Position numbers and translations under genes: made by a program. The notes beneath the pieces were generated by a model that had not been told where the DNA came from, made no database searches, and was given only the letters and a program-made list of their open reading frames with translations. From Stenomitos frigidus ULC18 (GTDB lineage: Bacteria; Cyanobacteriota; Cyanobacteriia; Leptolyngbyales; Leptolyngbyaceae), in contig NZ_PVWK01000084.1 in NCBI RefSeq assembly GCF_003003795.1, positions 124,001 to 188,000 on the forward strand: a stretch of DNA of 64,000 nucleotides. Reading direction: 5' to 3'. Shown here in pieces: positions 36,544 through 52,955 of this stretch. The first letter of the stretch is position 1. Each line of letters opens with the position of its first letter.

Positions 36544-36874
36544 GTGTCTCACCTCCTTTATCTGGGTGTTGGTGTCATTCAACGTTGCGTATCAGTCTTA
36601 AAAAACAAAGCCAGATCAAAAAACCCCGGTTAAAAAGCCGGGGTTGCGCCGTATCCTCATGTCATGTTGAACGGAGCAACATTGACATTAGAAAATACAA
36701 AACGAAAACCTAAGCAGGGAATTAAGCGTTAAGCACCTGCTGTCTCTGGCTTTGCTATTCAGTTGTTGACTGCAAATAGTAACGTCTAGTCAGCTTACTC
36801 TTGATTACTGTTTAACGGAGAGTCGACTGTTAATTAACCTCTAGTTTAACAACTAACAGTCAACAGCGAGAGCT
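36544..36874 (-). promoter_or_regulatory. rplJ leader region
   Basis: 331 bases between the rplA stop and the rplJ start. In bacteria this interval usually holds the L10 autoregulatory leader, to which L10-(L12)4 binds through a kink-turn. I see the attenuator-like stem (36618-36645) but cannot confirm the kink-turn by eye. It could alternatively hold a separate rplJ promoter after termination of the rplK-rplA transcript. Confidence 0.5.
36618..36645 (-). terminator. Terminator/attenuator before rplJ
   Basis: On the minus strand, AACCCCGG (36638-36645) pairs with CCGGGGTT (36622-36629) across an eight-base loop. A run of six T follows. This is a canonical intrinsic terminator placed about 75 bases before the rplJ ATG, inside the leader. 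Confidence 0.8.
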
Positions 36875-50177: not shown

Positions 50178-50828
50178 TCACGTGCCAAATGTGCGATCGC
50201 CCGCGTCACCCAGTCCTGGAACAATAAAGCCCTTTTCGTTCAAGCCTTCGTCGATCGCTGCAGCGTAGATGTTGAGACTAGGATAAGCAGCACTCAGCTT
50301 TTGCAACGCGGTTGGTGCCACAACCACTGAGATAATGCGTACTAGCGCCGGATCAACTCCCCGCTGTGTCAATTCTGCCATAGCTGCGATGCTAGTGCCG
50401 CCAGTGGCGAGCATGGGTTCTGTAATTAAAACGCGCGTCTGGGGATCAAACTTTGCTGGCAACTTGTTGAGATAACAGCTTGGCTCCAGGGTCTCTTCGT
50501 TTCTCACAAAACCAATATGGTAAATCGACGCCAGTGGCAGCAATGCTTGAGCCCCGTCGAGCAGCGCTAACCCTGCACGTAAAATTGGCATCACTACCAC
50601 TGGAACCGTTGGATCGATAAAGGTCGCCGGGCTGGGCGCTAGAGGCGTATCAATGGTTGTTTCCTGAATGGGCAGCCAGTCGCGAATAGCCTCATAGGTC
50701 AGCCAGCGACCCAACTCGGTCATGGCGCTGCGAAAGAGCGTTGACGGTGTCGAGGCGTCACGGGCTACAGCTAGCCAATGTTGGATGAGCGGATGCGGCG
50801 GGACGTAGACGCGCAGTTGAAGAGTCAT
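50178..50828 (-). CDS. upp: Uracil phosphoribosyltransferase
   Basis: 216 residues. Converts uracil and PRPP to UMP (pyrimidine salvage). The PRPP-binding loop is VLITEPMLATGGTS (about 133-146) and the uracil-binding C-terminus GFIVPGLGDAGDRTFGT is conserved. A mid-chain PILRAGLALLDGAQ matches the family's PIlRAGl signature. Length is normal. Its substrate could in principle come from nucleoside uptake such as the BMP transporter at 10-15 kb. No pyrimidine operon neighbours. Confidence 0.95.
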   Translation of the reverse strand: MTLQLRVYVPPHPLIQHWLAVARDASTPSTLFRSAMTELGRWLTYEAIRDWLPIQETTIDTPLAPSPATFIDPTVPVVVMPILRAGLALLDGAQALLPLASIYHIGFVRNEETLEPSCYLNKLPAKFDPQTRVLITEPMLATGGTSIAAMAELTQRGVDPALVRIISVVVAPTALQKLSAAYPSLNIYAAAIDEGLNEKGFIVPGLGDAGDRTFGT

Positions 50829-51095: not shown

Positions 51096-51177
51096 GTTGC
51101 AGGGTTGCAGAAGTTTTATCAGTCAACCAGCCGCTTCTTACAGCCTGAAAGCACAACTGCGTAAACGGCAGATTATA

Positions 51178-51205
51178 TTGACAGTATTCTCAATAGGGCT
51201 AGTCT
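51178..51205 (+). promoter_or_regulatory. Candidate promoter for an orphan small transcript
   Basis: TTGACA at 51178-51183 is a perfect -35 element. TAGTCT at 51200-51205, with a 16-base spacer, is a weak -10 (TA...T conserved). It precedes a hairpin and an intrinsic terminator with no plus-strand gene between. Confidence 0.5.
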
Positions 51206-51211
51206 TATTTT

Positions 51212-51280
51212 TAGTGTTCTCCTCTCTGAAGGATTCAGTAGGGGCTTGGTCAGCAGCAAAAGACTAAGCCTCTTTTTTTT
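51212..51280 (+). ncRNA. Candidate small RNA with two stem-loops
   Basis: A transcript of about 70 bases from the promoter above would contain a CU-rich single strand (TTCTCCTCT, 51218-51226), a small hairpin CTGAA-GGA-TTCAG (51226-51238) and a 12-pair terminator stem (51240-51251 with 51262-51273) followed by eight T. There is no ORF. The layout recalls short cyanobacterial sRNAs, but the Yfr1 ACUCCUCACAC core is absent, so it would be a different RNA. Termination of an unseen longer transcript is the alternative. Confidence 0.5.
51240..51280 (+). terminator. Orphan intrinsic terminator
   Basis: Twelve-base-pair stem (two G-U pairs), a ten-base loop and a T8 tail on the plus strand. No plus-strand protein gene ends upstream for over a kilobase, which is why it is linked to the small-RNA candidate. 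Confidence 0.88.
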
Positions 51281-51410
51281 GTTGCTGCCATCACTGTGAC
51301 TGCTTCACCCCTTCTTGATGACAAACTATCTACTGTCGGTTGACCGCTGAAAGCCCTTTGGGCGCATTAACTCCGATAAACTGTTAGAAGACTTGTTCAT
51401 CGTGGGTTTC

Positions 51411-52955
51411 ATGGCTTTATCTTCTCCATCGGCTTCTGAGCGATCGTCTCTACTGTCATCTGCCACCGAGTTTGACGCGATCGTGGTTGGTTCAGGCATT
51501 GGCGGATTAGTCACTGCTACCCAATTAGCGTTAAAGGGAGCCAGTGTGCTGGTGCTAGAGCGCTACCTGATACCTGGCGGTAGTGCTGGCTATTTTGAGC
51601 GAGAAGGGTATCGATTTGATGTTGGAGCATCGATGATTTTTGGGTTTGGGCAGCAAGGCACCACTAATCTCCTTACTCGTGCTCTGCAAGCAGTCAACGT
51701 GAGCCTGGAGACCATTCCTGATCCTGTGCAGATTCATTACCACTTACCCGATGATCTAGAGCTGAAAGTGCATCGGAACTATGAGAACTTCTTGCAAGAA
51801 CTGATTGCTTGTTTTCCCCATGAAGCGGTAGGTATTCGCCGGTTTTACGATGAGTGCTGGCGCGTTTTTAAGTGCTTGAACGTGATGGAGTTGCTCTCGC
51901 TAGAAGAACCACGCTATCTTGCACGCGTCTTCTTTCAGCATCCGTTTGCTTGTCTAGGGTTAGTCAAGTATTTACCTCAAAACGCTGGCGACATTGCTCG
52001 ACGCTATATTAGCGACCCAGTCTTGCTGCAGTTTATTGATATAGAGTGCTACTGCTGGTCGGTGGTGCCTGCCGATCGCACCCCAATGATCAATGCAGGG
52101 ATGGTCTTTAGCGATCGACACTACGGTGGCATTAATTACCCAAAAGGTGGCGTGGGTCAAATCGCCCAAAAGCTGGTTGAAGGTCTAGAAAAATGTGGTG
52201 GGCAGATTCAGTACAAGGCCAGAGTCACTAAAATCCTGCAAAAAAACGGGCGTGCTATCGGCGTAGAGTTGGCATCTGGCAAGAGTTACTATGCCAAACG
52301 GATCATCTCCAACGCGACTCGCTGGGACACGTTCGAGAAACTGATTCCACCCACACAAATGCCAGCGGCCGAACACAGATGGCAGCGCCGTTATCAGAAA
52401 TCTCCCAGTTTCCTCAGTCTCCACCTGGGTGTTAAGGCCGAAGCACTGCCTCTAAGAACAGAATGCCACCACATTTTGCTAGAAGACTGGGAGCGCATGG
52501 AAGCTGCTGAGGGCACCATTTTTGTCTCCATCCCCACCTTGCTCGATCCGTCGCTGGCTCCTCCGGGACGTCACATTATCCATACCTTTACACCCAGTTG
52601 GATAGAGGCCTGGCAGCATCTCTCGCCCAGCGAGTACAAAGCCCGCAAAGCAGCAGCAGCGGCTCACCTGATGCAGCGACTAGAGCGCCTCTTTCCGAAT
52701 CTTGCCGCTTCTGTGGACTATCAGGAAATTGGCACCCCACGCACTCACCGACGCTTTTTAGGACGCGATGATGGCACTTACGGACCGATCCCTCGACGCA
52801 AATTAGCAGGCCTACTAGGCATGCCCTTTAATCGCACAGCAGTTTCTGGGCTTTATTGCGTCGGGGATAGTACGTTCCCAGGGCAGGGGCTTAATGCTGT
52901 TGCTTTTTCTGGTTTTGCCTGTGCCCATCGTGTGGCAACCGATTTAGGCTTGTAA
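51411..52955 (+). CDS. crtH: Carotenoid (prolycopene) isomerase, CrtH type
   Basis: 514 residues from ATG 51411; a TTG six codons earlier is possible. FAD/NAD-dependent enzyme that converts poly-cis to all-trans lycopene. The N-terminal dinucleotide motif [16 protein letters not shown] is followed by [21 protein letters not shown]-like sequence, and the C-terminal FAD motif [21 protein letters not shown] is diagnostic of CrtI/CrtISO-type oxidoreductases. The central region and length (about 510) fit CrtH better than CrtI desaturase. No other carotenoid gene is near. Confidence 0.9.

Follow-up and report, generated by a model that had tools for sequence, protein, structure and literature searches.

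We identified a predicted 68-nt RNA on the plus strand of the window (the whole stretch of DNA analysed, 64,000 nucleotides, taken from a cyanobacterial assembly of 167 contigs that totals 6.98 Mb and belongs to the same class as Synechocystis salina), and this RNA is very probably an orthologue of IsaR1, the small RNA (sRNA) repressed by Fur, made in iron starvation and pairing with the mRNAs of iron proteins. IsaR1 is a known RNA that reduces the production of iron-rich proteins at iron shortage. An earlier note on this DNA had proposed that a trans-acting sRNA, about 70 bases long, is encoded upstream of the gene for carotenoid isomerase. This proposal held, as the predicted length is 68 nt, the RNA is conserved and complementary to candidate targets, and its neighbour matches TIGR02730. 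The labels 'orphan' and 'new' in the same note had to be given up: many cyanobacteria carry the RNA, members of Synechocystis among them, and in length, operator and best predicted targets it agrees with what is published for IsaR1. It almost certainly belongs to an established family rather than representing a novel type of RNA, despite the lack of a match in Rfam 15.

Anatomy of the locus and its Fur-type operator

The locus comprises the following elements.

50178–50828, minus strand: upp, uracil phosphoribosyltransferase, divergent upstream neighbour (TIGR01091, 231 bits; cut-off 208)
51176–51195, plus strand: operator TATTGACAGTATTCTCAATA resembling a Fur box, whose inverted repeat TATTGA-N8-TCAATA overlaps the −35 element
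51178–51183, plus strand: −35 element TTGACA, read from the sequence
51200–51205, plus strand: weak −10 element TAGTCT, 16-base spacer, 3/6 match to TATAAT
51213–51280, plus strand: transcript of the putative IsaR1, 68 nt, both ends predicted
51214–51234, plus strand: CU-rich 5′ core GTGTTCTCCTCTCTGAAGGAT, proposed target-pairing region (alignment and duplex predictions)
51220–51223/51230–51233, plus strand: small hairpin of 4 pairs inside the core (fold)
51240–51280, plus strand: intrinsic terminator, 12-pair stem 51240–51251/51262–51273 with a 10-base loop (fold)
51273–51280, plus strand: T8 of the terminator, read from the sequence
51411–52955, plus strand: crtH, carotenoid isomerase, downstream neighbour in the same orientation (TIGR02730 carot_isom, 945 bits; cut-off 587)

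The perfect TTGACA described in the earlier note was confirmed, and its description of the −10 element as weak was correct, since the best candidate at a 16-base spacer scored only three of six positions. The CU-rich strand, which reads AGTGTTCTCCTCTCTGAAGGATTCAGTAG from 51213, the small stem-loop and the 12-pair terminator with T8 were all located on the plus strand, as that note had described them. The core GTGTTCTCCTCTCTGAAGGAT occurred once in the window even when three mismatches were allowed, and none of 100 shuffles contained it. A promoter scan of the window gave no site at this locus, and the 12-pair terminator with its 10-base loop was absent from the list of a generic terminator scan with a loop limit of 8. 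The folding of the single sequence was ordinary (z −1.56; 13 of 200 shuffles equal or better), and the signal beyond chance is that of conservation and covariation, not of single-sequence folding. In the fold of a longer strand, an alternative hairpin GCAGCAAAA...TTTTGTTGCTGC (51253–51288) encloses the terminator, and a pairing resembling it was discernible by eye in one related locus (L004).

The statement that no plus-strand gene ends at the site also stood, in that no credible one was found. Two plus-strand frames lie near it, a TTG frame of 56 codons that spans it and one of 128 codons that stops at 51164. Both match relatives in short pieces only, which for the longer one lie chiefly where it runs antisense to the beginning of upp, and no NCBIfam family matched the 128-codon frame.

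The operator dyad TATTGACAGTATTCTCAATA was the sole match in the window and was found in none of 100 shuffles. Its right half ATTCTCAATA is identical to the core of the FurA box consensus of Anabaena, given as AAATAAATTCTCAATAAAT in PMC4005646. This apparent Fur-type operator, which spans the −35 element, had been overlooked in the earlier note. For comparison, the upstream regions of related loci (L001/L002–L070 and L266–L291, identical ones merged) were assembled into 75 distinct regions; five loci lacking the searched core were left out (L056, L058, L063, L066 and L287), of which L056, L058 and L066 have an upstream TTGACA and the weak homologue L063 has none. The sequence TTGANA was present 33–38 bases 5′ of the core in all 75 regions, and 74 of them yielded the upstream consensus GTTGACAnnnATTCTCAATAA. 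The half-sites of the window operator are one base closer than in this consensus, and for this reason a weight matrix built from the relatives missed the window's own operator, a result that counts against a fully standard operator in the window. With respect to the −10 element, 55 of the 75 promoters match the consensus at five of six positions, 14 at four and six at three; the same-genus relatives L002 and L017 likewise have a 3/6 element. The window promoter is of the same kind as those of the relatives, but less canonical. The operator sequence is of the type expected for IsaR1, and Fur would be predicted to bind it.

Conservation and covariation in cyanobacteria

BLAST with positions 51150–51300 detected the RNA in 29 of 58 related genomes, and in an alignment of 20 sequences 18 columns are invariant, of which 17 belong to the 5′ core. 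The earlier note had suggested a covariation search in related genomes; this search gave a conserved core and a terminator stem in which the letters change and the pairs are kept, with seven of the nine consensus pairs changed on both sides. For the whole structure, none of 500 shuffles reached any of five covariation measures and slid versions scored far lower, the covariation being counted on the same alignment that yielded the structure. The small upstream hairpin is conserved, without covariation.

A covariance model was built from the 20 sequences, the window sequence among them. In the window's own genome it detected a single copy, at 71.4 bits (E 4.7e-20), and among 38 chosen relatives it matched 31 at E ≤ 0.1, and in 24 the E value was 1.1e-13 or lower. 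Under strict filters, a match at E ≤ 0.01 was obtained for 100 of 386 genomes from across the phylum (74 at 1e-10 or better), and 41 of 61 members of a family other than the window's gave one at E ≤ 0.1. Within this family the model, under the same filters, matched none of the seven genomes of one genus (g104) and none of the five of another (g178), which range from 4 to 11 Mb, and lineage-specific loss is possible in these two genera. All five genomes of the Synechocystis genus, including Synechocystis salina LEGE 00031, were matched at E ≤ 0.1, and TTGACA was present 5′ of the RNA in all four loci read (L051–L054); in none of the five does the match fall on the position published for IsaR1 of strain 6803 (start 3164320). 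Second matches, mostly weak, were observed in some genomes (G009, G153, G011 and others); the two strong matches of G009 (E 3e-17 and 3e-13) could be paralogues.

Neither the window RNA nor its counterparts in five related loci matched any family of Rfam 15, and a scan of the window at gathering scores returned only a tRNA and a ribosomal protein L10 leader. The latter (RF00557) lies at 36608–36767 on the minus strand, with 48.4 bits against a cut-off of 44. Below threshold there were two matches, snoZ168 and mir-1288, and an identity with either was rejected. The core as a printed sequence was not found in the literature searched. Yfr1 is a short, CU-rich cyanobacterial sRNA of 65 nt; the window RNA gave no match to it at the gathering score, and its core presumably differs from that of the window RNA.

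Predicted pairing with mRNAs of iron proteins

To score the pairing potential of the RNA, duplex energy and the cost of target opening were computed for its first 29 bases against positions −100 to +40 of each gene. The background consisted of 338 genes of the same genome (the window plus 400 kb), and the start regions of five published targets, sodB, petA, sufB, petF and acnB, were taken by family search. Because start codons were assigned automatically and the RNA's own structure was not charged, the scores are a ranking and not physical energies. The sodB gene was whichever of two superoxide dismutase genes is without an N-terminal extension, and its product is probably of the iron type; petF was the best of five ferredoxin matches in the genome, and the only one scored.

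The strongest pairing was predicted for sodB (−18.7 kcal/mol), which surpassed all 338 background genes and was equalled by none of 1000 shuffled RNAs. It was followed by petA (−14.6 kcal/mol; four background genes, or 1.2%, and 13 shuffled RNAs as good) and, more weakly, by sufB (−12.2 kcal/mol; 17 background genes, or 5.0%, and 131 shuffled RNAs as good). The values for petF and acnB, −10.6 kcal/mol each, were unexceptional, with 47 background genes as good in both cases and 121 and 270 shuffled RNAs, respectively. The second superoxide dismutase gene of the genome was at background (111 of 338 as good). Two of 100,000 randomly drawn sets of five genes, and none of 1000 shuffled RNAs, equalled the summed score of the five, and the gene-by-gene counts with shuffled RNAs indicate that it depends mainly on sodB and petA. 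Against a harsher background, in which every ATG in the first 70 codons was considered, the genes as good out of 311 numbered none for sodB, four for petA, 21 for sufB and 59 each for petF and acnB, and 5 of 100,000 sets matched the sum.

The same start regions were scored in other genomes of the window's family and in G040. Among 30 genomes searched, 19 each were scored for sufB, sodB and petA, 15 for acnB, and 13 of 19 for petF; some genomes were scored with the window RNA in place of their own, and all ranks refer to the background of the window's own genome. In the 12 genomes scored with their own RNA, a sodB site of the form GAGAGAAGAACACA or similar, immediately 5′ of the ATG, was within 0.6% of background in ten, and a petA site within the first codons was found in eight. 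The sequence GAGAACAC is present 5′ of sufB in 10 of the 12, the best-scoring site being elsewhere in three of these. The petF site TGAGAGGACCACTG, which 47 of the 338 background genes equal or surpass, is unaltered in 8 of the 13 genomes for which petF was scored and differs by a single change in two others. For acnB, no site stood out among the genomes paired with their own RNA. In G008, G009, G011 and G012, the small hairpin has CTCTAGAGG in place of CTCTGAAGG, and the sufB start region carries CTCTAG in G008 and G011, and not in G009 and G012; this may hint at a joint change of RNA hairpin and sufB site in G008 and G011.

Relation to IsaR1 and alternative readings

IsaR1 was described as a 68-nt RNA conserved in cyanobacteria (PMC6202907), with a Fur site upstream of it in Synechocystis 6803/6714 (PMC12282138), and as the strongest intergenic transcript induced by iron depletion in strain 6714 (PMC5386190). 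The targets assigned to it include Fed1, sufBCDS, sodB, petABDC1 and acnB, among others (PMC8136909); hemA, chlN, petJ and ggpS are further published targets. NC-181, an iron-induced sRNA of ~70 nt for which distant cyanobacteria may have homologues and whose predicted targets include sodB (PMC3516471), we infer to be IsaR1. The RNA of the window resembles IsaR1 of Synechocystis PCC 6803 in its predicted length of 68 nt, ending in a Rho-independent terminator, in a Fur-type operator over the promoter, in its presence in Synechocystis and its wide distribution among cyanobacteria, and in its predicted pairing with the start regions of sodB, petA and sufB. As judged from the DNA, length, operator, genus and distribution all appear to agree with the published RNA. 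Differences were also noted: the pairing of the window RNA with petF and acnB is not individually significant; the promoter has the degenerate −10 element and the closer half-sites described above, unlike the consensus of relatives; and the Synechocystis genus has CTCTTCTC in the core where the window has CTCCTCTCTG, while Synechocystis salina and G069 share AAGGATTCAGTAG after the core with the window RNA.

As an alternative, the RNA could be a 5′ leader or attenuator of crtH, mostly terminated and read through under some condition to express the isomerase. This would accord with the alternative hairpin around the terminator and with the neighbourhood of 66 related loci (one per genome, not all matches), where crtH follows downstream and co-oriented in 52 cases, or 53 with L010, a truncated locus whose core the automated count had misplaced and for which separate reading puts crtH downstream. 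The median distance from the core to the crtH start is 180.5 bases, and upp is upstream and divergent in 54 of the 66; together, these counts indicate that the order upp–isaR1–crtH is widespread. However, 12 of the 66 loci have ~1.5 kb of downstream sequence with no crtH and the model still matches the RNA there, and the distance to crtH varies from 43 to 694 bases, indicating that the RNA is independent of crtH. The 5′ core, moreover, complements the start regions of other genes and not that of crtH (neither crtH nor upp is a predicted target). We consider a crtH leader very unlikely, and as the main role it was rejected on the basis of the crtH-less loci. In the Synechocystis genus, crtH adjoins the RNA in four of five genomes and upp in none. 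Sucrose-phosphate synthase lies ~40 kb from the RNA in G127 and >1 Mb from it in G429, with only sub-cut-off matches in G069; in Synechocystis 6803 we take sll0033 to be crtH and sll0045 to lie near 3.14 Mb, neither of which carries weight in the assignment.

A new sRNA family, unrelated to IsaR1 and sharing its length, operator and targets by chance, would fit the lack of an Rfam match and the indirect link to the founding IsaR1 sequence of strain 6803, which runs through the Synechocystis genus. Such a family is nonetheless highly improbable, since all five genomes of that genus have the RNA and the four loci read have TTGACA 5′ of it, since its length and best predicted targets fit IsaR1, and since the passage of PMC12282138 that deals with Fur sites of Synechocystis 6803/6714 names a single sRNA, IsaR1. 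That the site is instead a small-protein gene is scarcely conceivable. An open frame does exist in the window, starting with GTG at 51214 and running for 17 codons into the terminator stem, but in relatives the frame differs in length and sequence, most often (22 of 75) having five codons because the number of bases right after the core varies, and the terminator covaries as a structure. A coding gene through the RNA was rejected, as the frames are not conserved in relatives.

Under the preferred reading as IsaR1, Fe-loaded Fur (FurA) would occupy the operator over the −35 element when iron is sufficient and block transcription. When iron is short, Fur would leave, and RNA polymerase would start near 51213 and stop after U8 near 51280, so that the derepressed promoter would yield the 68-nt RNA. 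Its CU-rich 5′ end would then pair with the ribosome-binding site or the first codons of mRNAs for iron-rich proteins, with sodB as the best candidate, followed by petA and sufB, and petF less certain; the pairing would block translation or promote decay, and iron would be spared. RyhB, PrrF and NrrF of other bacteria are iron-starvation sRNAs that lower the synthesis of iron proteins, with sodB as a shared target; we note the shared logic only and claim no sequence relation. RyhB is named in PMC3516471, and PrrF and NrrF are named in PMC5386190 and PMC3516471. An extended scheme, which we regard as very unlikely, is that the switch of IsaR1 has changed in this lineage, through decay of the −10 element and a one-base approach of the Fur half-sites, so that the RNA may need an activator or respond to a second signal, and that read-through of the terminator within the conserved order upp–isaR1–crtH may couple iron starvation to carotenoid isomerization, giving the locus a role both in trans and in cis.

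The covariance model separates genomes with the RNA from those without it, so that sequence searches can test the suggestion, put forward in PMC12090762, that an sRNA of this sort may be missing from the marine cyanobacterium Trichodesmium IMS101. The absence from Rfam, the degenerate promoter and the lineages apparently without the RNA (g104 and g178) remain of interest. For the genome studied here, the analysis locates what is very probably a conserved iron-sparing regulator that annotation of RNA families with Rfam 15 would miss.
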